Positions 28,869 to 43,325 of a stretch of DNA of 44,015 nt are shown here, in pieces. The notes under the pieces were generated by a model. It saw only the letters and a program-made list of their open reading frames with translations, was not told where the DNA came from and did no database searches. The stretch comes from an uncultured Hyphomicrobiales bacterium. GTDB taxonomy: Bacteria > Pseudomonadota > Alphaproteobacteria > Rhizobiales > Beijerinckiaceae. Both the position numbers and the translations under genes were made by a program. Location: positions 1 through 44,015 of the forward strand of contig CAISEY010000388.1 of NCBI GenBank assembly GCA_903884435.1, given 5' to 3'. How positions within the stretch are numbered: the stretch's first letter is position 1; the number at the start of each line of letters is the position of its first letter.

Positions 28869-29126
28869 TTCAGGTTTCTCCAGCGTTTTTTGAAACTGAC
28901 CTGTTTTCAGGATTTCTTCACGCGATATTGCGGCGTCGTTCCGGAAAACAGCCAGGGGACAGGCAATTCCCAAGACGCCAATCCGGAACACCCGCGAGAC
29001 GACGCCCGGATCCGACATACCACCATTTGATGAACCCCGGGTATTTGACCTCGACCGGGAAGCCTGTTTAGCTCTTGATACGGTTTTCCCTAAATGGTGA
29101 GCCGGAAAATTGAGGAGCGAACACCC

Positions 29127-32100
29127 ATGCTGAGAGAAATCTCGCGACGGCGGTTCCTTGGAACCGCGGGCGCGGGTATTGCCGGCACCGCGATCGGAGC
29201 CCTGGGTTTTGAAGATTCCGGACAGGCGCTCGCCGCCTCGATCCGTGATTTCAAACTGGCCGGCACGACCGAGACCCGCAACACCTGCACATATTGTTCC
29301 GTGGCTTGCGGAATCATTCTCTATTCGAAGGGCGCGGACAAGGCTGCCGGGAAAAAAGGGAAGATCGTCCACATCGAGGGCGATCCGGACCATCCCACCA
29401 ATCGTGGCACGCTATGCCCGAAGGGCGCCGCCCTGCTCGACACCGTGAACGCGGAAACGCGCACGAAATACCCGATGGTGCGCAAGCCTGGCTCCGACAA
29501 ATGGGAACGCCTGAGCTGGGACGCCGCTCTGGACCGAATTGCCGGGCTGATGAAGGCCGACCGCGACGCGAACTTCATCGCGAGGAACCGCGATGGCGCG
29601 ACCGTCAACCGCTGGACGACGACGGGTTTTCTCGCGGCGTCCGCGACGACGAACGAGACGGCGTGGATGACCTACAAGGTCGTTCGCTCCGCCGGCATGG
29701 TGGTGTTCGACAACCAGGCGCGTGTTTGACACGGCCCGACGGTATCCAGTTTGGGTCCGACGTTTGGCCGTGGCGCAATGACGAATTCCTGGACGGACAT
29801 CCGCAACACGGATCTCGTCGTCATCATGGGCGGCAACGCCGCCGAAGCCCATCCTTGCGGCTTCAAATGGGTCACGGAGGCGAAAGCCAACCGGGGCGCG
29901 AAACTCATCGTCGTCGATCCGCGCTACACGCGTTCGGCGTCCGTGGCGGATTTTTACGCTCCGATCCGTCAGGGCTCCGACATCGCGTTCCTGCTCGGCG
30001 TGATCAATTACTGTGTCCAGAACGACAAGGTGCAGTGGGAGTACGCGAAGAACTACACGTCCGCCGCCTTCATCGTTAAGGAGGGTTTCGCCTACAAGGA
30101 CGGACTGTTCACCGGCTATGACGAGAGCAAGCGCGACTACGACCGCGCCAGCTGGCAGTACGAATTCGACGAGAACGGCTTCGCGAAAGTGGACCCGACG
30201 CTTCAGCATCCGCGCTGCGTCTGGAACCTGATGAAGCAGCACGTGGCGCAATACACGCCCGAACTCGTCGAACGAATTTGCGGCACGCCCAGGGAAGCCT
30301 TTCTCACGGTCGCGAAAATGATCGCGGAGACGTCGGCGCCGGACAAGGTTATGACGTCGATGTACGCGCTCGGCTGGACCCAGCATTCCAAGGGATCGCA
30401 GAACATCCGCTGCATGGCGATGCTTCAGCTCATCCTTGGAAACATGGGCATGCCCGGCGGTGGAATGAACGCGCTGCGTGGTCATTCCAACATCCAGGGT
30501 CTGACCGACCTCGGGCTCATGTCCAACCTGTTGCCCGGGTATCTCACGCTCGCGAGCGACCGGGAAGCGACGCTCGACACCTACATGTCGACGCGCGCCT
30601 TCAAGCCGGAACGGCCCGGCCAGATGAGCTACTGGCAGAACTACAAGAAATTTTTTGTCAGCTTCCAGAAATCCATGTGGGGAGACGCGGCCACCGCGGA
30701 GAACCAGTGGGCCTATGATTATCTGCCAAAGCTGGACGTGCCGTCCTACGACGTTTTGCGCGCGTTTGAATTGATGCATCAGGGCAAGATGAATGGCTAC
30801 TTCTGCCAGGGCTTCAACCCGCTGATGAGCTTTCCGAACAAACGGAAGATCGCCGCGGCCCTGGGCAAGCTGAAGTTCCTCGTCGTGATGGATCCGTTGC
30901 AAACGGAGACCGCGCGTTTCTGGGAAAACCATGGCGAGTTCAATCCGTCGGAACCCGCCAAAATCCAGACGGAGGTGTTCGAACTGCCCACCACCTGCTT
31001 CGCGGAAGACGAGGGTTCACTGACGAACTCTTCACGCTGGTTGCAATGGCACTGGGCCGGACAGGACGCGCCCTTCGAAGCGAAGTCCGACGTCTGGATC
31101 ATGGCGCAATTGTACAAGCGGCTGCGCGCGCTTTACGAAAAGGATGGCGGCGCGTTCGCGGAACCGCTCACGAAACTGACCTGGAACTACAAGAACCCCG
31201 ACGAACCGACGCCGGAAGAACTCGCCCGAGAGTTCAACGGCTCGGCGCTCGAGACCGTGAAGGATCCGAACGACCCCACCAGGAACATTCTGGAGAAAGG
31301 CAAGCAATTGCCGGGCTTCGCCGCCTTGCGCGACGACGGAACGACGGCTTGCGCCAACTGGATTTATTCGGGTTCGTTTACAGAAGCCGGCAATAACATG
31401 GCGCGGCGGGACAACCGCGATCCGTCCGGTCTTGGCGTTTTCCAGAACTGGTCATTCGCATGGCCGGCGAACAGACGGATCCTCTACAATCGCGCCTCCG
31501 CCGACTTGCGGGGCAAGCCCTGGGATCCCAGGCGCGCGCCCATCGCCTGGAATGGCGAAATCTGGACGGGGCCGGATATTCCGGACATCGCGCCAAACGC
31601 GAAGCCCGAAGTGATGATGCCCTTCATCATGACGAACGAGGGCGTCGGTCGCCTCTTCGTGCGTGGCCTGATGAAAGACGGGCCCTTCCCGGTTCACTAC
31701 GAACCGTTCGAGAGCCCGATCGCCAACCCGATTGCTCCGAAAATTCAGGGTAATCCGGCGGCGCGGGTGTTCCAGGGCGACATGGAGCAGTTCGGCAATT
31801 CGAAGGAATTCCCCTACGCGGCGGTGACCTACCGACTCACGGAACACTTCCATTACTGGACCAAGCACAATCGCGTGAACGCGGCCTTGCAGCCTGAATT
31901 CTTCGTGGAAATTTCAGAAGAGCTCGCGAAGGAGAGGGGCATCCAGAAGGGCGGGTGGGTGCGTGTCGACAGCGCGCGCGGCTACGTCAAGGCGAAGGCA
32001 GTCGTGACGAAACGCATCAAGCCAATGAAATGCGACGGAAAGACAGTGCACATCGTCGGCATCCCCATTCACTGGGGTTTCATGGGCGCGGCGAAGAAAG

Positions 32101-32213
32101 GCTTCGGCGCGAATTCGCTGACGCCTTTCGTCGGCGACGCCAATATCGAGACGCCGGAGTTCAAGGCTTTCCTGGTCGACATCAAGCCGGACTCCGGTCC
32201 GGTGACCTCGTGA
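29127..32213 (+). CDS. fdnG: selenocysteine-containing formate dehydrogenase-N/O alpha subunit
   Basis: The catalytic subunit of a periplasmic, membrane-bound formate dehydrogenase; it oxidises formate to CO2 at a molybdenum bis-MGD centre. It has a Tat signal (ISRRRFLGTAGAGIAG), a 4Fe-4S site at Cys54, Cys57, Cys61 and Cys97 (NTCTYCSVACG, GTLCPKG), and an in-frame UGA at 29727-29729. The flanking residues QARV-U-HGPT and the following TFGRGAMTNSW equal those around selenocysteine in E. coli FdnG, so the UGA is read as Sec201 and not as a stop; the frame then continues to 1,028 residues, the family's usual length. The ATG at 29127 follows GAGGAG. It is followed by fdnH after 15 bases. Automated calling would split this gene in two. 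Confidence 0.97.
29733..29769 (+). promoter_or_regulatory. SECIS-like hairpin directing selenocysteine insertion
   Basis: Directly after the UGA, 29740-29759 folds as CGG / CCG, a bulged U at 29743, then AUCCA / UGGGU around a loop of the RGYYU type (AGUUU if the last A-U pair opens). A bulged U below a short stem and this loop are features bound by SelB in the E. coli fdhF and fdnG elements. GGCC at 29733-29736 and 29766-29769 can close a lower stem. Drawn by eye. Confidence 0.75.
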
Positions 32214-33796: not shown

Positions 33797-33929
33797 TCGA
33801 ACGTGATTTTTCGTGGGCGGTGCGGTAGCGTGCCGCTCGCGCTGTTTCCGATCTCCTGCCGACGCCAAGCGTGTCCGCCATACTCGCGAAACACGCAACC
33901 CCAAGACGTGACCCGTGAGGTTCGTTCGT

Positions 33930-34847
33930 ATGTCGCAACCTGTCGCGCCACAATTTCAGCCAGTTCACATCGGCGAGGAAGCCAATCCGCCGGCCGTTGT
34001 ATTGCCGAATCCAGAGAGCCTGTTCCGCTCCCGCGCCGATCGCCTGCGCCAACTGGCGCCCGATCATCCACTCGCCTCCTATCTTCGATTTCTGGCTTCG
34101 CTCGCCGATGCGCAGGCCCGCGTTCTCGCGGGTCTGCCCCCTCCGACGCTCCCGGCTTCCGACGAGTTCGAACTCGCCCTCCAGCACGGCATGGCTCCAA
34201 TCGCGCGCGCGCGGGTCCCGATCGACGACGTCGCCATGACGACGCTTGAACGATTACTCGCGGAGACCGGCGAAATTGCAATGCCCGACGCGGCGGCGGC
34301 GGCGCGCGACGGGGTCGTCGCCGCCGACATGAGCGAGCGGCGCGCGATGATCGTGAACCTCGTCGCCGATTCAATCCCGGCGGAGGAAATCGCGGAACAC
34401 ATTTTCGTCGCCGCCGCGCTGCAAATTCATTTCACCCGGCTCGCTTCACTGCTGCCCGCGGAACGGATCAAGGCCACCGGCGACGGCGCCTGTCCCGCGT
34501 GCGGGGGACCGCCGGCGACGTCAAGCGTCGTCGACTGGAGCCGGTCTCAGGCCGCGCGGTTCTGCGCCTGCGCAACCTGCGCGACGAAGTGGCACGTCGT
34601 GCGCATCAAGTGTGTCGGCTGCTCCTCGACAAAGGGCATTCACTATCTTCACGTCGAGGGAGCCGCCGACACGATCAAGGCGGAATGTTGCGACGAGTGT
34701 GGCTGCTACCTGAAGATTCTTTACGCCAGCAAGGATACGTCGCTTGATCCGGTCGCCGACGACATCGCGAGCGCCGGACTCGATCTGATGGTCAGGGAAC
34801 GGGGCTTTCGGCGCCTTGGATTTAACGCCTTTCTGGCTGGCCTCTAG
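33930..34847 (+). CDS. fdhE: FdhE, formate dehydrogenase accessory protein
   Basis: A 305-residue cytoplasmic protein of the FdhE family, a rubredoxin-like metal-binding chaperone needed for formation of active membrane-bound formate dehydrogenase. Cys pairs for metal binding are CPACGG, CATC, CVGC and CDECGC, spread over residues 190-280. The N-terminal half is helical and binds the apo-enzyme in E. coli. ATG at 33930 has GAGG nine bases upstream; GTG at 33915 is possible. It lies 18 bases before selA. FdhD, the other accessory, is not in the window. Confidence 0.93.
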   Translation: MSQPVAPQFQPVHIGEEANPPAVVLPNPESLFRSRADRLRQLAPDHPLASYLRFLASLADAQARVLAGLPPPTLPASDEFELALQHGMAPIARARVPIDDVAMTTLERLLAETGEIAMPDAAAAARDGVVAADMSERRAMIVNLVADSIPAEEIAEHIFVAAALQIHFTRLASLLPAERIKATGDGACPACGGPPATSSVVDWSRSQAARFCACATCATKWHVVRIKCVGCSSTKGIHYLHVEGAADTIKAECCDECGCYLKILYASKDTSLDPVADDIASAGLDLMVRERGFRRLGFNAFLAGL

Positions 34848-34865: not shown

Positions 34866-36290
34866 ATGACCAAAGTGGTTCACACTGAAGGCGAATCGGC
34901 GAAGTTCGCGCGGCTTCCTTCGGTCGACCGCGTGATGGCCTGCGACGCGGGACGCATCGTCTCCGCCCGCTTTGGACAAAGCGCCGCGGCGGACGCGATC
35001 CGCGCGCAGATCTCGATATCGCGCGCGAATTTCGCCAGCGGCGAGGATTTTCATCCGCCAGACACGGAAACGGTCGCCCGGGCCGCGCTGGCGACGCTGG
35101 AAGCGCTCGACGCGCCATCGCAGCGCCGGGTGTTCAACCTGACGGGAACGGTGCTTCACACCAACCTCGGGCGCGCGACGCTGTCCGAGGAAGCCATCGC
35201 CGCGGTCGTGGAGTCGATGCGCCATCCCACGAATCTCGAATTCAACCTCGCCAGCGCGGCGCGGGGCGAGCGAGACGACCATGTGCGCGGCCTCGTGCGC
35301 GAACTCACGGGAGCGGAGGACGCCTGTCTCGTCAACAACAACGCCTCCGCGGTGCTCCTCGCGCTGAACACGCTCGCCCGCGGCAGGGAAGCCATCGTCT
35401 CTCGCGGTGAACTCATTGAAATCGGCGGCGCGTTCCGCCTGCCCGACATCATGCAACGCGCAGGCGCGAAATTGCGCGAGGTGGGCACGACGAACCGCAC
35501 GCATATCCGTGACTTCGAGGCGGCGATCGGTCCGCGCACCGGCGCCATTCTGAAGGCGCACGCCTCGAATTACGCCATACTGGGGTTCACCGCCGAAGCT
35601 CCTCCCGCGGAGATCGCGAAAATCGCGCGGAGCGCGGGAACGCCATTCATCGACGATCTTGGTTCCGGAACGCTCGTCGATCTTTCACGCTGGGGCTTGC
35701 GACGCGAGCGCACCGTCCAGGACGCGCTGCGCGACGGAGCCGACCTCGTGACCTTCTCAGGAGACAAACTCCTCGGGGGGCCTCAGGCGGGATTCATCGT
35801 CGGGCGCGCGGATCTCGTTCGCGCTTGCGCGAAGAATCACCTGAAGCGCGCGCTGCGTCTCGACAAATTGCGCCTCGCCGCGCTCGAGGCGACGCTGAAG
35901 CTTTACAGAAACCCCGACAAGCTCGCCGAGCGTCTGCCAGCTCTGCGTTATTTCAGCCGGACACGCGACGAGATTTCGGCGCAGGCCAATCGCTTTCTGC
36001 CGTTCTGGTCCCGAGCACTTGGCGCGGGCTGGACCGGGAGCGTGATCGATTGCTCGAGCCAGATCGGCTCGGGAGCGTTGCCGATGGAATCCCTGCCCGG
36101 AGCGGCCCTCGCGGCAAGCCCGGACTCAAGGCGCAAGGGCCGCGCGCTTGATTCACTGTCCCGCCGCCTGCGTGAACTTCCAGTCCCCGTCATCGGACGC
36201 ATCCACGAGGACGCCCTCCAACTCGACTTGCGCTGCCTCGACGACGAGGACACTTTTGTCGCGATGCTCGATCAAATGACGAAGGCCTGA
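34866..36290 (+). CDS. selA: SelA, L-seryl-tRNA(Sec) selenium transferase
   Basis: A 474-residue pyridoxal-phosphate enzyme that turns Ser-tRNA(Sec) into Sec-tRNA(Sec) with selenophosphate. Family segments are RVFNLTGTVLHTNLGRATL, DDHVRGLVRELTGAEDACLVNNNASAVLL, TTNRTHIRDFEAAI, FIDDLGSGTL and the cofactor lysine Lys301 in TFSGDKLLGGPQAG. The length is typical. It lies 18 bases after fdhE and three bases before the Sel1-repeat gene. The selenophosphate synthetase selD is not in the window. Confidence 0.96.
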   Translation: MTKVVHTEGESAKFARLPSVDRVMACDAGRIVSARFGQSAAADAIRAQISISRANFASGEDFHPPDTETVARAALATLEALDAPSQRRVFNLTGTVLHTNLGRATLSEEAIAAVVESMRHPTNLEFNLASAARGERDDHVRGLVRELTGAEDACLVNNNASAVLLALNTLARGREAIVSRGELIEIGGAFRLPDIMQRAGAKLREVGTTNRTHIRDFEAAIGPRTGAILKAHASNYAILGFTAEAPPAEIAKIARSAGTPFIDDLGSGTLVDLSRWGLRRERTVQDALRDGADLVTFSGDKLLGGPQAGFIVGRADLVRACAKNHLKRALRLDKLRLAALEATLKLYRNPDKLAERLPALRYFSRTRDEISAQANRFLPFWSRALGAGWTGSVIDCSSQIGSGALPMESLPGAALAASPDSRRKGRALDSLSRRLRELPVPVIGRIHEDALQLDLRCLDDEDTFVAMLDQMTKA

Positions 36291-36293
36291 CCG

Positions 36294-37085
36294 ATGTTGT
36301 CCTCGCTGTTTGGCAGCAAAATGAAAGAGCCGGACATCGAGGATCTCCTCGCGGAAGCGAAGGCGCTCGCGGAGCGCGGGGAATTTGAAGCGGCGCTCGC
36401 GATCTGGGGGCCCCTCGCCCACAAGGGGGTCGCTCGCGCGGCCAATAACGTTGGCGCCTGTTTTTCGGGCGGTCTTGGAGTCACACGCAACCTGGAACTC
36501 GCCGCGCGCTGGTTGACCATCGCCGCGGAGGCCGGGGATCCCGCTGGCCAGAGAAACCTCGCGACGGCCTTTTTTCAGGGTCACGGGGTCGAACAGAATT
36601 TCCAGGTCGCCTTGCGTTGGTACCGGGCCGCCGCGGAAGCGGGCGACGCGGCAGCGCAGGATATGTTGTCCTGGATGCTGCTCGAGGGGGGAACCATCCC
36701 GGGAGATCCCGTTGAGGCGCGTCGATGGGCGGAAGCGGCGGCAAGCCAGAACGTCGCCAGCGCCATGACACGCATGGGTATGATCTATCACGACGCACTC
36801 GGCGTCGAAAGGGACGCAACGGCGGCCGCAAGCTGGTGGGCGAGGGCCGTGGAAGCAGGCGACGCCGACGCGATGGCGATGCTTGGAGCCGCGAACCATC
36901 TCGGACAGGGTGTTGATCGCGACTCCTTGCGCGCGATGGTCCTGCTGATCCTTGCCCGGCAGGGCGGCTCCGGTCTCGCGCAAACTTTCTTTGGCGCCGT
37001 TCAGGCGTCGCTTCCGCCAGGCGGGTTTGAACAAGCCGGACGTCTGGCCGCCAGTATTCAGGCGACGCGGAGTCCCCTCCGATGA
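36294..37085 (+). CDS. Sel1-repeat protein between selA and selB
   Basis: A 263-residue protein made largely of Sel1-like (TPR-type) helical repeats, about five of them: AANNVGACFSGGLGVTRNLELAARWLTIAAEAGD, AGQRNLATAFFQGHGVEQ, AAQDMLSWMLLEGG, SAMTRMGMIYHDALGVERD and DAMAMLGAANHLGQGVDRD. No signal peptide or catalytic motif is seen; such proteins usually hold other proteins together. It begins three bases after selA and its stop overlaps the selB start in an ATGA junction, so its product is made with the Sec machinery. A function in Sec decoding is inferred from position only. The name Sel1 refers to a yeast/worm gene and not to selenium. Confidence 0.88.
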   Translation: MLSSLFGSKMKEPDIEDLLAEAKALAERGEFEAALAIWGPLAHKGVARAANNVGACFSGGLGVTRNLELAARWLTIAAEAGDPAGQRNLATAFFQGHGVEQNFQVALRWYRAAAEAGDAAAQDMLSWMLLEGGTIPGDPVEARRWAEAAASQNVASAMTRMGMIYHDALGVERDATAAASWWARAVEAGDADAMAMLGAANHLGQGVDRDSLRAMVLLILARQGGSGLAQTFFGAVQASLPPGGFEQAGRLAASIQATRSPLR

Positions 37086-39172
37086 TCGTTGGCACCGCCG
37101 GTCATATCGATCATGGAAAAACGTCCCTGGTGAAAGCCATCACCGGCATCGACGCCGACCGGCTCAAGGAAGAGAAAGAGCGCGGCATCACCATTGATCT
37201 CGGCTTTGCTTACTGGCCACAAGAGAATGGCGAAACCATCGGATTCGTGGACGTTCCAGGCCACGAGCGATTTGTGCACACGATGCTCGCGGGCGCGCAA
37301 GGAATCGATCTCGTCATGCTCGTCGTCGCGGCCGACGACGGCGTCATGCCACAAACACGCGAGCATCTTGAAATCATCGAACTACTCGGGCTTGGCCGGG
37401 CCATCGTGGCGCTGACCAAGGTTGACAGGGTGTCGCCCTCGCGAATTGTCGAAGCACGGAATGAAATAGCGGCGCTACTCGCGCCGACACGGCTGAACGG
37501 GAGTCCTGTTTTCCCGGTTTCCAGCAACACGGGCCACGGCGTCGCGGAACTTTCATCCAGTCTGCGAGACATGGCCAAAGTGACTGGAAGACGCTCGGAA
37601 AATCGGGAATTCCGGCTCGCCGTGGATCGCAGTTTCGTACTCCAGGGCGCTGGCGTGGTCGTCACCGGCATGGCGCTCGACGGGAGCGTGAAAGTCGGAG
37701 AGGAAGTAATCGTGTCTCCATCGGGCATACTGGCCCGCGTTCGTTCGATCCACGCCCAAAATAATCCGACGCAAACCGGCAAGGCCGGCGATCGCTGCGC
37801 CCTGAACCTCGCGGGACCGGGCATCTTCAGGGACGTCGTTGGAAGAGGCGAAATGGTGACGACCGCGGCCAGCCACGCGCCGACACAGCGTATCGACGCC
37901 GCGCTCGCGTTGTCGCGAACGCCAGGTCAGGCGTTGCGCCAATGGATGCCCGCGCGGTTGCATCACGGAACCGCCGAAGTTGGAGCCAGGGTGGTTCTGC
38001 TGGATGACGGGACCCCGGACCCCGATGGGGCCGTGCGTATTCAACTGGTCCTGGAAAAGCCCCTGGCCGCGCGCGCGCTCGACCGCTTTATTCTCAGGGA
38101 CGTCACGGCGAGCAGGACCATCGGCGGCGGACGTTTTATCGATCTGCGGGCGCCCGACCGGAAACGGCGGACGCCACAACGCAGGGCGATCTTCGACGCG
38201 CTCACGAGGGATGCGCCCCGGGACGCTATGGCCGCGTGGCTGGAGGGGCCGGCGCTCTTTCTGGACATCGATCTTTTCGCGCGTGACCGTGGATTGACCC
38301 GGACGCAGATCGAGGACCTGACATCCGGGTTGAACGCCGTGATTTTCGGGGTTGGTGGAGCCAGGTTCGCGTTTGCGAGCGAAAAGCTGAATGTCCTGAA
38401 ATCCTCCGTGCTTTCCACGCTGGAAAACTTCCATGCGTTCAATCCGGACCGTCCAGGACTGGGCCTCGAGGCCCTGCGGTTTCAGATAGCGCCAATAATT
38501 CCGGCTGCACTTTTTCGCGAAGCGCTGAGAATGCTCGCTTCCGGGGGGATTGTCTCCATTGATGGCGGCTGGGTTCGTTTGTCAGCCCATCGCATCGAAC
38601 TCTCTTCCGAAGACGAGAGGCTCCAGACTATCATCGCTCCGATGCTCGATGGCGCCGCACGGTTCCGTCCGCCCCGCGTCAGGGATATTGGCAAGATCAC
38701 GGGAGTTGACGAGGAGCGGGTGCGAAACCTTTTCAGGAGACTTTCCCGGCGGGGCGAAATCGACGAAATCGCTGCAGATCATTTTTTTCTCAGGCCTGTC
38801 GTCGCCGAAATGGTCCGGGCTGCCCAACAAACCCAGGGACGGCCCGGAAACTGGTTTACCGCCGCCGCGTTCCGCGACGCACTTGAAGCGGATGGCCAAA
38901 TCGTTGGACGCAAGGTCGCGATCCAGATACTTGAATTCCTTGATCGTCAGGGCGTAACGATCCGCCGCGGAGATCAACGACGGGTCAATCCGCTCCGCTC
39001 GGACTTGTTTGAGTCCGCCCAGGACGAAACGGGTCGGGGAAGAGAATCGCTCCCGGTGGAGCGGCCGGACTTCAAATCCGGTTGGGGCCGTGAGACGGTC
39101 CCAGGTGGGTTCGACTCCCATTCTCTTCCGCCAGCCCCTCGCGAGGAGCCCGACCATGCCAACGGATACTGA
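37082..39172 (+). CDS. selB: SelB, selenocysteine-specific elongation factor, frame running through selC
   Basis: An EF-Tu-like GTPase that brings Sec-tRNA(Sec) to UGA codons marked by a SECIS. The G domain is clear: [39 protein letters not shown] and LTKVDRV, followed by two EF-Tu beta domains and C-terminal winged helices ([55 protein letters not shown]) that bind the hairpin. SelB would normally finish soon after [11 protein letters not shown] (about 39010). Here no stop occurs; the frame crosses the entire tRNA-Sec gene and ends at 39172, 17 bases inside the next gene, giving 696 residues with about 45 residues coded from 39038 onward. A frameshift in the sequence is the alternative. Confidence 0.93.
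39038..39133 (+). tRNA. selC: tRNA-Sec (anticodon UCA)
   Basis: All parts of a bacterial tRNA-Sec are present: an eight-base acceptor stem GGAAGAGA / TCTCTTCC, a six-base D stem CGCTCC / GGAGCG, an anticodon stem CCGGA / TCCGG around CTTCAAA with the TCA anticodon, a long variable arm GGGGCCGT / ACGGTCCC, a T arm with TTCGACT, discriminator G and an encoded CCA. The extended acceptor and D stems distinguish it from tRNA-Ser. It lies entirely inside the open frame of selB, on the same strand, and ends 22 bases before the next gene's start. No separate promoter is evident. Confidence 0.97.
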
Positions 39173-39614
39173 CGTTTTCCTGGCGCACTACGAAGCCGCG
39201 GCCCGGCGTGGCGAACGCGAGGAGCGGGAGTTCCGCGACAATTATTTCAGCAAGCTCGCTGAACTGGAACGGGTTCGAATTCTCGCCAATCGACGTAGCA
39301 ATCTGCTTTCCACGACAACGCGAGCCATCGAGGGCATGGCGGAAGACGAAAACGCGCGCGACCTCGTGGCGCTTGTTCTCGAAAACGAAGTCGGCCTGTC
39401 ACGGCGAAACCCGCAACACGCCATCGTGATCGACAGATTTCACTTAGTGACCGACGCGATCCTGGAGTCGCTGGCTCCTGACAGCCACTTCGATGTCAAC
39501 GATGGCTGGCGAACCGTCGAGGAATTCGAGACCTGGTACAGGGAGCGGACAGGCCAGGAGTTTTTCGCGCTCCGCGACATCTATGTGCAGGAGACGCCCC
39601 GTGTCGATTTCTGA
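39156..39614 (+). CDS. uncharacterised protein between selC and the lipoate genes
   Basis: A 152-residue protein that I do not recognise. It has an acidic-basic helical N-terminal half (YEAAARRGEREEREFRDNYFSKLAELERVRILANRR), then VLENEVGLSRRNPQHAIVIDRFHLVTDAI and a C-terminal WRTVEEFETWYRERTGQEFFALRDIYV. No Cys, signal peptide or membrane segment is present. The ATG at 39156 has GAGGAG seven bases upstream. It overlaps the end of the selB frame by 17 bases and the next gene by 14, so it is translated as part of the chain that leads into the LipS-type genes. It may belong to the sulfur-oxidation locus. Confidence 0.72.
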   Translation: MPTDTDVFLAHYEAAARRGEREEREFRDNYFSKLAELERVRILANRRSNLLSTTTRAIEGMAEDENARDLVALVLENEVGLSRRNPQHAIVIDRFHLVTDAILESLAPDSHFDVNDGWRTVEEFETWYRERTGQEFFALRDIYVQETPRVDF

Positions 39615-40008
39615 GACCATCGACACGGCGGACGCCCGGACCGATTTCGATGAATGGATTCGCCACGAGTACGCGAGCGGAAATCCACGAGGATTTACCG
39701 CTTTCGTGGTTCTGGTGAAGATCAAGAAAAAGGATGTCGAACCTCTTTGCTCGACATACATGCACGTCATCGGCAACGAGACGGATTGGGGTGAAATCAC
39801 CACTCTCCTGGCGGGAAGCGGGATGACGTGGGACGCGGCGGCCTTTTTCCCGAAAAGGGATTTTCGTTCCGGGGGCCCCCTGGACAATCCTTCCGCCCGG
39901 CTGCTGCTTCTCGATCAGGAAGCAAAAATCAGGGAGAACAGGCTCGCGATCAACGACGGATATTTCTTCGACGCCTGGGGTCGGCGGATGCGCGTGGAAG
40001 AGACGTGA
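39601..40008 (+). CDS. uncharacterised protein coupled to a radical SAM gene
   Basis: A 135-residue protein of unknown family. Visible stretches are DFDEWIRHEYASGNPRGFTAFVVLVKIKKKDVEPLCSTYMHVIGNETDWGEITTLLAGSGMTWDAAAFFP, then DNPSARLLLLDQEAKIRENRLAINDGYFFDAWGRRM. It has a single Cys and looks soluble and cytoplasmic. The GTG at 39601 has AGGAG seven bases upstream and lies inside the preceding gene; its TGA overlaps the next ATG (TGATG). This tight coupling to the lipoate assembly genes suggests a role in that system. Confidence 0.72.
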   Translation: MSISETIDTADARTDFDEWIRHEYASGNPRGFTAFVVLVKIKKKDVEPLCSTYMHVIGNETDWGEITTLLAGSGMTWDAAAFFPKRDFRSGGPLDNPSARLLLLDQEAKIRENRLAINDGYFFDAWGRRMRVEET

Positions 40009-41045
40009 TGTCGAACAACATCGACTTCACCCCGGATGTGATCGACGCCTTCGATTTGAACTCGATTTGCGAAGAAGGTGAAATCGATATTTCCATCGCA
40101 CGCGAATTGTTGCGTGAATGCGCGTCCTTCAGTCGGCGTCCTTTTCGCGCCTCGACACCCGGCTTTCGCGACTTCGACACGGACGAGCTTGGGGCTTGCC
40201 GCAAGTCCGCGACTTTTCCCGCGTTCTCCATCACCGGCGGCGCCTGCGCGCTGGACTGCGCGCATTGCCACGCAAGCATACTGAAGCCTTTGATTCCAGC
40301 TGGGGAGCCGCTTGCCTTCGAACGACTCGCGACGAGCATGATCGAACAGCGGGGCATGCGCGGCTTTCTGCTGTCCGGCGGTTCGAACAGGCGCAACGAG
40401 GTCCCTTTCGATCGATATTTACCGGCGATCGAACGAATTAAGTCCGTGCATCCGGATGTCGAGATTCTCGTTCACACCGGGCTTGTGTCCAGGGAGCGGG
40501 CCCGGAGACTGGCCAGTTCCGGCGTCGATGTCGCCATGCTCGACATCATCGGCGCTCGTGAAACCATTCAGGAAGTTTACAATCTCGACAGGCCCGTTGG
40601 CGATTTCGAGGAATCACTCGCGGCGCTTGTCGATACCGGAATGAAGGTGGTTCCGCACATCGTCGCCGGACTTCACTTCGGCCGTTTGCTCGGAGAGACA
40701 AACGCGCTTGGAATCATCGCTCGCCATAGAACCGAATCGGTCATCATTGTCGTGCTCATGCACGCCTTCGCCGACGCGGGACGGTTTGGTCCCGTGAATG
40801 TTCGCGAGATCGCGGGATTTTTCTCGTTGGCCCGCGGAACCCTGAACGATCGGCTTCTGATGCTTGGATGCGCACGCCCGCATGGAAAAGCGCGTCGACA
40901 ACTCGACCTTTACGCGATGTTCGCGGGTTTCGACGGGATTGCCTATCCCGCCGACGGCGTCCTGCGTCTGGCGCGCCTGCTCGGGCGCCCCGCGGACCAC
41001 AGTTTTTCCTGTTGTGGCGGTCGTTCTTGCCCGGGGGTCGCATGA
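40008..41045 (+). CDS. radical SAM protein, LipS-type lipoyl synthase candidate
   Basis: A 345-residue radical SAM protein with the Cx3Cx2C cluster motif at Cys80, Cys84 and Cys87 (GGACALDCAHCHAS) and a C-terminal Cys-rich tail (Cys335, Cys336, Cys341 in SCCGGRSCPG) that could hold an auxiliary cluster. It is not a standard LipA, which has a CX4CX5C motif. Beside a second radical SAM gene, a lipoate ligase and lbpA, it fits the two-protein lipoyl synthase LipS1/LipS2 known from archaea and from sHdr-type sulfur oxidisers, in which the proteins insert sulfur at C6 and C8 of an octanoyl group. I cannot say which of the two it is. TGATG overlap with the gene before. Confidence 0.85.
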   Translation: MSNNIDFTPDVIDAFDLNSICEEGEIDISIARELLRECASFSRRPFRASTPGFRDFDTDELGACRKSATFPAFSITGGACALDCAHCHASILKPLIPAGEPLAFERLATSMIEQRGMRGFLLSGGSNRRNEVPFDRYLPAIERIKSVHPDVEILVHTGLVSRERARRLASSGVDVAMLDIIGARETIQEVYNLDRPVGDFEESLAALVDTGMKVVPHIVAGLHFGRLLGETNALGIIARHRTESVIIVVLMHAFADAGRFGPVNVREIAGFFSLARGTLNDRLLMLGCARPHGKARRQLDLYAMFAGFDGIAYPADGVLRLARLLGRPADHSFSCCGGRSCPGVA

Positions 41046-41046
41046 C

Positions 41047-42243
41047 ATGGCCTGCACTCCGACGCCTTTCCCATCGCCACGCGTACCGGATCCCGTCCCC
41101 CGCGAGATGAGAAACGGCGCTCCGGTGAAGCGCGACGGGCTCGAGCCAGCCGGGGTCTATCGTCCACGGCGGCGCAAAACTCCGCAGATGCGCTCGCCGG
41201 ATTACGTGCAGCTTTCCACCGCCGCCGCGATCACGCTCGGCCTGATCCCCGGACAGATGCACAGATGCAAATGCACCGGCTGTCTCAATCTTCTCATCAC
41301 TTATCCCGAGGGATGCCGGGCGAATTGCGCCTATTGCGGTCTCGCCCGTCACCGCGAGGCGAAGGAGAATTACGCGGATCGCAATTTCATTCGCGTCGAC
41401 TGGCCAGCGGCGCCACTGATCGAAATTATCGATCGGGTTAGCGACATGCGCGGCGCAACCGCGTTTCAACGCATGTGCATCTCGATGATTACCCATCCAA
41501 ATTCGGACCGGGACGCCAAGACCATTCTCGAAAACTGGATGGCGCGAATTCCCCGCGAGCAAATTCCCGTGTCGATTCTTTCGAACCCCACCACGATGAA
41601 CCGCCGCGATGTGCGGGATCTGCACGATCTAGGCGCCGATATCTTCACGGTCGCGCTCGACGCCTGCACACCCGCGATTTTCGAACAAACAAGAGGCAAG
41701 GGTGTCGACAGCCCTCATTCCTGGAACACATACTGGAGCGTTTTGGAATTCGCTCGCGAGATTTTCGGCGTCGATCGCGTGGGCATGCATCTCATCGTCG
41801 GTCTCGGCGAGACCGATTTCGACGTGCTGAAAATCTGCGCGGACCTGGTGAATCTCGGGTGCCATTCTCATTTATTCTGCTTCTATCCCGAACACGGAAG
41901 CCTGATGGATCAGACGCCGGCGCCGTCGCGCGCGCGCTGGAGACGCATTCAACTCGCCCGTTATTTGCTTGAGTACACTGGTCATCCCTTCGAGGCTCTC
42001 GGTTTCGGTGGCGACGGAGAGCTTCTGCGCTTCGGCATGGCTGAACCGCAATTGACCGCAATCGTGAACACCGGCTTGCCGTTCCGCACCTCGGGATGCC
42101 CTGGCAAGGAACGACCGGATATTTCGGCCTGCGACAGACCCTATGGCGACAGTCCTCCCTCCGACATCGCCAGCTATCCATTTCAGCCCAACGGCGGGGA
42201 TCTCCGGCGTATCCGCAGGCAGCTCGGAGGCCCGCCCACATGA
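41047..42243 (+). CDS. radical SAM protein, LipS-type lipoyl synthase candidate (partner)
   Basis: A 398-residue radical SAM protein, biotin synthase-like. The Cx3Cx2C motif is Cys90, Cys94 and Cys97 (EGCRANCAYCGLAR); a second Cys group just before it, Cys74, Cys76 and Cys79 (HRCKCTGCLN), could bind an auxiliary cluster that is used up as sulfur donor. Further segments are FQRMCISMITHPNSDRDA, ILSNPTTMNRRDV and MHLIVGLGETDFD. Start at 41047, one base after the previous stop; the first 45 residues are Pro/Arg-rich and may include a later true start. The stop overlaps the ligase start in an ATGA junction. With 40008-41045 it probably forms the LipS1/LipS2 pair. Confidence 0.85.
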   Translation: MACTPTPFPSPRVPDPVPREMRNGAPVKRDGLEPAGVYRPRRRKTPQMRSPDYVQLSTAAAITLGLIPGQMHRCKCTGCLNLLITYPEGCRANCAYCGLARHREAKENYADRNFIRVDWPAAPLIEIIDRVSDMRGATAFQRMCISMITHPNSDRDAKTILENWMARIPREQIPVSILSNPTTMNRRDVRDLHDLGADIFTVALDACTPAIFEQTRGKGVDSPHSWNTYWSVLEFAREIFGVDRVGMHLIVGLGETDFDVLKICADLVNLGCHSHLFCFYPEHGSLMDQTPAPSRARWRRIQLARYLLEYTGHPFEALGFGGDGELLRFGMAEPQLTAIVNTGLPFRTSGCPGKERPDISACDRPYGDSPPSDIASYPFQPNGGDLRRIRRQLGGPPT

Positions 42244-43325
42244 GACATACCCTTCGAATCGCGGATTCCGGCTTGTGTTCGGCGCGACGGAATCTTAGCC
42301 TCACTGAAGCTCTTTGCCGGAGACGCCAGGAAGATGGAACTCCCGACACGTTGCGCTTCCAGCACTTTCCGCGCAGCGCGATCATTGGGCGCCATCAAAG
42401 ACTCGAGAAGGAATTGAACCTGGAATGGATAGCGGCGAACGGTGTCGAAACCGCGCGCCGCATGACCGGCGGCGGCGCGATCGTGATGGGCCCGGGAATT
42501 CTGGGCTGGGAATTGATCATCGCGCGCGATCGGGCGCCGCGGGATCTGGAAGCCGTTTCCGGGCTCGCATGCAATGGCGTCGCGCGGGCCTTGCGAAGTT
42601 TCGGAATCGACGCGGCGTTCCGTCCACGCAACGACATCGAAGTCGATGGTCGCAAGATTTCCGGAACAGGCGGATATTTCGACGGCACCGTGCTGGTTTT
42701 CCAGGGAACCGTGCTTGTCGAACTCGACCGCGATTTTCTTGCAAAGGCGCTCGTGCTTCCCGCGCATAAACTGGGAAAGCGTGGATTGAAGTCGTTCAAT
42801 GAGCGAATTTGCGATCTTCGGGACGTCATGGGGTCTTGTACACCGGCGTTGAAGGAATTGGGGGACGGAATCGCGGAAGGCATATGCGATCAATTTGGAT
42901 TCGAGCCATTGACGGGTGAAATTTCAGAATGGGAACTTTCGCTCGCGGCGCTCGTTCACGACGAGGAAATCGGGACCGACAGTTTTGTCCGCGGGACGCT
43001 GGATTCCCTGGCCGCGCCGGGAAGGTCCTGCGTCGTTCGTGATCTCTCCGGCGGGCGAGTCGAGATCGCCTTGACGTTCCTTAACGGGCTCGAGGCCATT
43101 GCCGATCAAATTTTGATCACGGGCGATTTCTTCGTCACGCCACCTCGCGTGATCCCCGATCTCGAAGCCCACTTGCGCGGGATCGCCGCACGGAATCTCG
43201 AGGCTGCGACAATTGCATTTCTCTCCTCCCGTTCGGCGAAATTTCTCGGCATTGACGCAAACGAGATCGCGAAATCAGTGGGCGAGGCGGCCAGCATCCG
43301 CGGCGCGGGGACAAAAAATGGATGA
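42240..43325 (+). CDS. lipoate:protein ligase of the sLpl type
   Basis: A 361-residue protein of the biotin/lipoate ligase fold with an LplA-like catalytic domain and a C-terminal accessory domain. Ligase motifs are TARRMTGGGAIVMGPG, NDIEVDGRKISGTGGYFDGT with the conserved Lys139, and LPAHKLGKRGLKSFNERI. In sHdr-LbpA gene clusters a dedicated ligase called sLpl(AB) attaches lipoate or octanoate to LbpA; location between the LipS pair and lbpA supports that role. It is coupled to the upstream gene by ATGA and overlaps the dsrE start by eight bases. Standard LplA reads RxxGGGxVFHD at the first motif; the IVMGPG variant differs. Confidence 0.88.
   Translation: MRHTLRIADSGLCSARRNLSLTEALCRRRQEDGTPDTLRFQHFPRSAIIGRHQRLEKELNLEWIAANGVETARRMTGGGAIVMGPGILGWELIIARDRAPRDLEAVSGLACNGVARALRSFGIDAAFRPRNDIEVDGRKISGTGGYFDGTVLVFQGTVLVELDRDFLAKALVLPAHKLGKRGLKSFNERICDLRDVMGSCTPALKELGDGIAEGICDQFGFEPLTGEISEWELSLAALVHDEEIGTDSFVRGTLDSLAAPGRSCVVRDLSGGRVEIALTFLNGLEAIADQILITGDFFVTPPRVIPDLEAHLRGIAARNLEAATIAFLSSRSAKFLGIDANEIAKSVGEAASIRGAGTKNG

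Follow-up and report, generated by a model that had tools for sequence, protein, structure and literature searches.

Nesting of selC, the tRNA-Sec gene, within selB is known from diverse Alphaproteobacteria (Mukai 2021, PMC8124441). The same study put forward, as a hypothesis, a brake in which cutting by RNase P leaves a nonstop selB mRNA. It also reported that the tail residues are alike among nested loci and that in many nested cases, though not in all, the stop codon of selB overlaps the beginning of the following ORF. Two reviews repeat the arrangement and the model (PMC9312934, PMC13188914); the passages concerned mention no experiment, and our literature search found no experimental test of the nested selB-selC model.

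We analysed a locus of this kind in a contig of 44,015 nucleotides from an uncultured Hyphomicrobiales bacterium, the whole of which we call the window. It is a further, deep-branching instance of the published nested arrangement, its SelB grouping with that of locus L006 (tree support 97). An earlier note on this DNA, made from the letters alone, had arrived at the brake idea, which is an independent rediscovery of the 2021 proposal. No test of translation accompanied the published model; the statistics on frame, linker and trailer described here now indicate that the frame is translated.

The selB frame and its tRNA-Sec gene

The features of the locus are as follows.

29094..32213, forward strand: formate dehydrogenase alpha subunit with an in-frame TGA at 29727-29729 (named by reading the sequence, not by family search)
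29724..29782, forward strand: SECIS element (Rfam SECIS_3; 79.2 bits, cut-off 63)
33915..34847, forward strand: fdhE (TIGR01562)
34866..36290, forward strand: selA (TIGR00474, 547 bits)
36294..37085, forward strand: Sel1-repeat protein between selA and selB (PF08238, four stretches)
37082..39172, forward strand: selB reading frame, 696 codons (open-frame list; TIGR00475, 411.9 bits, cut-off 242.25)
39011..39037, forward strand: linker, 9 codons from the conserved DLF end of SelB to the tRNA; in relatives of varying length, nearly always a multiple of 3
39038..39133, forward strand: selC, a tRNA-Sec of 96 bases with encoded CCA and anticodon TCA, in selB phase 0 (ARAGORN)
39134..39169, forward strand: trailer, 12 selB codons 3' of the tRNA, overlapping the ORF2 start (from the sequence; pN/pS in relatives)
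39170..39172, forward strand: selB stop codon TGA, inside ORF2 (from the sequence)
39156..39614, forward strand: ORF2, a small helical protein of 152 aa (102 bits against an HMM of the ORF2 of 25 other loci, window excluded)
39601..40008, forward strand: ORF1, about 135 aa, 3' of ORF2 (family HMM 3e-27, window not among the seeds)

The TGA-interrupted formate dehydrogenase is likely to be the Sec client of the selenium system. The Rfam tRNA-Sec model (RF01852), which is without the CCA, matches 39038-39129 at 85.2 bits against a gathering cut-off of 47. The earlier note's reading that no stop precedes or interrupts tRNA-Sec in the selB frame, and that selB runs 17 bases into the next gene, is confirmed by the coordinates: the ORF2 ATG occupies 39156-39158 and the last base of the selB TGA is base 17 of ORF2. 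TIGR00475 places the end of SelB homology at residue 635 (38986) and Pfam SelB-wing_3 at residue 634, with the conserved DLF end at 39010, in agreement with the note's placing of the normal family end near 39010. Its tail of about 45 residues coded from 39038 onward proves to be 44 residues long. The extension (...DETGR followed by GRES...) opens with a Gly from the GGA of the tRNA, and the tRNA part ends in a Pro from the CCA. Exactly 652 selB codons lie 5' of 39038, placing the expected RNase P site at 39037/39038 on a codon boundary; a cut there would remove the selB stop, as the note had argued, and a stopless message of 652 codons would remain.

The open frame of one window is by itself no evidence of selection, because a random 53-codon frame at 66% GC is stop-free with a probability of about 0.28, and because 64 of the 84 loci whose selB stops before the tRNA, and so makes no use of it, nevertheless have tRNA-Sec open in frame 0. 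Both figures favour passive read-through, in which an ancestor lost its stop and tRNA-Sec was stop-free in that frame by chance, with no selection acting. Evidence for a kept frame comes from conservation over relatives, not from the single window.

The host genome (461 contigs, 93.5% complete, 6.9% contaminated) has a tmRNA, and a second Rfam tRNA-Sec match over the cut-off (49.2 bits) that ARAGORN did not call as tRNA-Sec. It also holds a second SelB without selC nearby (L152:7412-9415, contig C342), 52% identical to the window SelB and neighboured by matches, below cut-offs, to thioredoxin reductase and UGSC-family (seleno)protein models. Since it groups with a different SelB clade, this SelB may mark a second Sec locus or be part of the 6.9% contamination. 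Among 19 further genomes of this family, 3 carry a SelB at E <= 1e-60, 34-35% identical to that of the window. Beside the selenium operon, after ORF1, a lipoate assembly cluster (39828-43325) shows matches to LipS1, LipS2 and lipoate ligase that fall below NCBIfam cut-offs.

Frame conservation and coding signal among relatives

We assembled SelB loci from searches at E <= 1e-60, which gave matches in 30 of 397 genomes from the order and in 54 of 385 from the class, and at E <= 1e-100, which gave them in 14 of 43 genomes from another order in the class and in 29 of 103 and 79 of 198 genomes from two families; these draws overlap in part. To them were added 80 named loci, the best 80 of 586 contig matches. 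Weak SelB matches (five and two) were left out of the locus set, and tRNA starts in 97-nt ARAGORN calls were set by acceptor-stem pairing. From 288 loci, 277 were classified, 11 fetched for other reasons being excluded. In 99 the tRNA was nested in selB, in 84 selB stopped before selC, 7 were partial, 7 had selC more than 400 nt away and 60 had no selC near. The remainder comprised 1 reversed locus, 2 at contig ends, 12 duplicates and 5 without the C-terminal part. The earlier note had proposed to look for the same open frame in relatives, and 99 of the 277 loci have it; a stop before selC in all relatives, which the note would have taken as counting against it, is not what we found (99 nested vs 84). 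Two deeply searched families supply about two thirds of the nested loci, so these counts are not a census.

Some loci depart from the common pattern at the tRNA. In two the selB stop lies immediately 5' of the tRNA (L091, TAA adjacent; L046, TGA one base away), perhaps through recent re-gain of an early stop. In four others, from several lineages (L019, L074, L093 and L167), a selB TGA falls at about the same place in the tRNA, 45 bases past its start; selB stop residues 46-48 were reported for Dyella and Luteibacter (Mukai 2021, PMC8124441). For 17 of 30 plasmids among the matches listed, the SelB match has no counterpart in the distributed gene table; annotators may omit coding genes in which a tRNA lies.

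The phase of the tRNA relative to selB is almost invariant. It sits on a codon boundary (phase 0) in 98 of the 99 nested loci, with 27 different in-frame linker lengths; in the 84 stop-before loci the three phases occur 34, 24 and 26 times. Stops within the tRNA do not impose phase 0, since the other two frames of nested tRNAs are open in 93 and 89 of the 99. An assembly indel, which might have opened the frame artificially, is unlikely because 97 of the other 98 nested loci have the same phase as the window. The sole out-of-phase nested locus (L279, phase 2) has a selB that crosses the tRNA and ends 133 nt after it, deep in ORF2.

Trees of 167 SelB cores of at least 44% identity turn this into a test of how the phase was kept. 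On a FastTree phylogeny, nested loci required at least 55 changes of linker length and 1 change of phase, and stop-before loci, a neutral comparison since part of their linker is non-coding, at least 27 and 12. The corresponding numbers on a second tree (IQ-TREE) were 56 and 1, and 27 and 12. Simulated indels of 1-2 bases left a locus still 'nested' in 66-83% of trials, so under neutrality the survivors should be mostly out of phase. With an expected frameshift share of about 0.6, the single phase change in nested loci has P ~1e-20, a rough binomial on parsimony minima that is good to an order of magnitude at best. Nested status itself changed at least 14 times on the SelB tree, gain and loss not being told apart. 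The comparison suggests that these bacteria actively keep the selB frame open through the tRNA.

Substitution patterns on either side of the tRNA point the same way, selection being evident before it and, more weakly, after it. In disjoint close pairs of nested loci, pN/pS in the selB frame was 0.48 for the linker (bootstrap 0.37-0.61; 19 pairs) and 0.62 for the trailer (0.45-0.92; 20 pairs), with values of 0.89-1.42 in the other frames of both segments. The trailer is weaker evidence than the linker because it also holds the start and Shine-Dalgarno-like signals of the gene that follows, a strict Shine-Dalgarno-like motif being present in 45 of 69 trailer regions. Translation through the tRNA is supported in so far as linker and trailer are both coding-like in the selB frame. 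The stop-before controls comprise 4 pairs each: pN/pS was 1.07 in the 36 nt after the tRNA, and the non-coding stretch that precedes selC had 0.69, with 1.6 and 0.78 in its other frames. The latter value makes the non-nested loci less than clean controls and is a point for passive read-through. Even so, pN/pS below 1 on both sides of the tRNA in nested loci, together with the frame test, disfavours that explanation, which we consider very improbable.

The tRNA-coded stretch itself behaves differently. Its pN/pS was 0.94 in frame 0 vs 0.99 and 0.87 in the other frames (37 disjoint pairs), or 0.76 vs 1.46 and 0.74 with 117 overlapping pairs, and there was no codon-position bias in its changes (82/62/71 in nested, 66/43/66 in non-nested loci). 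These tests gave no sign of peptide-level selection on the tRNA-coded part. Tail residues are alike over the 22 nested loci compared, as would be expected if the tail were a useful SelB domain in its own right; yet the tRNA explains that likeness, pN/pS is like that of the other frames and many relatives have no such tail. We regard a functional tail as highly improbable.

Possible coupling to ORF2 and ORF1

The two small genes that follow selC in the window belong to two families found 3' of selC in 70 of the 99 nested loci (family HMMs matched in 71 and assigned a start in 70). We infer from their position that they correspond to the ORF1 and ORF2 of Mukai. The window copies match no Pfam or NCBIfam family. 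Two Pfam names that appeared at E 0.004-0.007 in 1-2 of 50 ORF2 members were taken as chance. Sequence searches of the PDB gave a best E of 0.022 for ORF2 and nothing at E <= 1 for ORF1. The predicted structures of ORF2 and ORF1 are confident (pLDDT 93 and 91), with no PDB fold match at E <= 0.001.

ORF1 or ORF2 follows in 70/99 nested loci, 7/84 stop-before loci (two of them more than 1 kb away) and 9/60 loci without selC nearby. With the ORF start taken from the HMM, 48 of these 70 nested loci have a selB stop that overlaps it, 44 as ATGA-type and 4 as TGATG-type contacts. By the letters at the selB stop alone, these 70 have ATGA in 54, GTGA in 4 and TGATG/TAATG in 2, and the 29 nested loci without ORF1/2 have 4 of each. 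Trailer length to the ORF start (<= 50 nt, 57 loci) changed at least 25 times, and 8 of these changes altered the frame. Among the selC-less loci with ORF1/2, a direct selB/ORF overlap is kept in 6 of 9 (ATGA in L018, L020, L021 and L030; TGATG in L022 and L025), which supports a coupling independent of selC; five of the six come from one genus (f35/g42), so they stand for two lineages and are not independent.

Loss of the small genes offers a further comparison. Genus g73 has lost ORF1/2; of its 12 loci 7 are nested and the other 5 no longer have the frame, through about 4 loss events, which suggests relaxation once ORF1/2 are gone. The difference from ORF-bearing loci has p = 0.010, or 0.046 if two frame losses with the ORF kept are also counted. 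A paired phylogenetic test of nesting against ORF1/2 went in the right direction but fell short of significance (median p 0.125 over 9 supported pairs).

Against coupling stand the 29 of 99 nested loci in which ORF1/2 was not found, among them a Hyphomicrobium-type clade that is nested in 12 of 12 loci. Clades lacking the ORFs show 9 linker-length changes without a phase change and are still coding-like, with pN/pS of 0.41 in the linker (6 pairs) and 0.47 in the trailer (5 pairs). Moreover, the overlap in the window itself is a looser one of 17 nt, and the window ORF2 lies in a different relative frame from most loci. The linker frame is held tighter than the trailer frame (39:1 vs 17:8, p = 0.0014), which coupling alone does not predict. 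In the three Hyphomicrobium-type loci read (L086, L078 and L013) a SelD-like gene, named by reading, lies convergent just past the nested selB-selC.

These same observations bear on the brake, advanced both by Mukai 2021 and by the earlier note, in which the frame would be kept so that maturation of tRNA-Sec removes the selB stop and SelB per transcript falls. The coincidence of the RNase P site with a codon boundary in 98/99 nested loci, the tmRNA available to rescue stopless messages, the persistence of nesting with a coding-like linker and trailer in clades without ORF1/2, and the tighter hold on the linker than on the trailer are all in its favour. However, a brake alone needs no coding constraint 3' of the tRNA, yet the trailer has a pN/pS of 0.62 (a value blurred by the ORF start signals), and the trailer frame is biased with respect to the start that follows. 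The 14 or more changes of nested status argue that a brake is dispensable, and some selC-less loci keep the selB/ORF overlap. As the reason for the open frame, we hold the brake to be a possibility, though a doubtful one. Comparative evidence fits coupling somewhat better than the brake as the main reason. That coupling to the next gene is the main constraint keeping the frame, with competition between ribosome and RNase P as its consequence, we judge to be an evenly balanced proposition.

A further rival is that tRNA-Sec comes not from the selB transcript but from a selC promoter inside selB, so that the overlap would have little effect on SelB. A promoter at the end of selB was proposed for the reversed Shewanella case (Mukai 2021, PMC8124441). 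A scan of 38600-39300 found no sigma-70-like site (0 found, 0.1 expected), although such a scan catches alphaproteobacterial promoters poorly, and synonymous change shows no marked drop over the last 45 selB core codons of nested loci (0.42-0.43 vs 0.42-0.55 elsewhere). An internal promoter of this kind seems to us unlikely.

A proposed dual role for selC, and comparison with described systems

Building on the anatomy, the conservation, the selection around the tRNA and the association with ORF1/2 starts, we propose the following. selC would sit in a tight operon between selB and the small gene ORF2, and ribosomes finishing SelB would run over the tRNA segment, stop at or inside the ORF2 start, where they could re-initiate, coupling ORF2 translationally to selB. 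Alternatively, the tRNA stretch of the RNA may take up its fold and be excised by RNase P, with the 5' cut at 39037/39038. If the genes are co-transcribed, one transcript would yield either tRNA-Sec or full-length SelB with ORF2. A cut message would encode residues 1-652, all of normal SelB, and tmRNA would presumably clear it. Cutting and clearance together would tie the levels of SelB and tRNA-Sec to each other; any such effect on levels is likely a consequence, not necessarily the reason for which the frame is kept.

Our tentative overall reading, put forward as a working model, is that selC may be a dual-coded RNA. Selection would keep the tRNA translatable in one phase as a ribosome bridge from selB to ORF2/ORF1, and ribosome passage and RNase P, competing for one RNA segment, would together determine how much SelB, tRNA-Sec and ORF2 protein are made relative to one another, coupling being the first or stronger constraint from which the brake follows. 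A functional tRNA gene inside a translated frame implies that one RNA cannot serve both roles simultaneously. Coupling to ORF2 is a concrete rival to the brake, and the two are separable by experiment.

The window resembles the nested loci of Mukai 2021 in most respects. The whole tRNA-Sec, 96 nt long, lies in the selB frame on the same strand; a Gly (GGA) opens the extension and the CCA is read as Pro; the cluster runs formate dehydrogenase, selA, Sel1, selB; and the selB stop overlaps the next ORF, with small ORFs downstream. It differs from the usual nested loci in that the overlap is 17 nt long instead of an ATGA or TGATG contact, and in that ORF2 and then ORF1 are both present. In the Roseomonas-type overlap of selB and ORF2 without selC (Mukai 2021), the selB stop likewise overlaps the start of an ORF1/ORF2-family gene, but there, as in the other selC-less loci, no tRNA lies between selB and the ORF. 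Finally, Mukai 2021 (PMC8124441) points to a mitochondrial case, the tRNA-Lys within cox1 of Armadillidium, which is likewise a whole tRNA in frame and in the same direction; it differs in belonging to a compact mitochondrial genome, where no argument from operon coupling applies.
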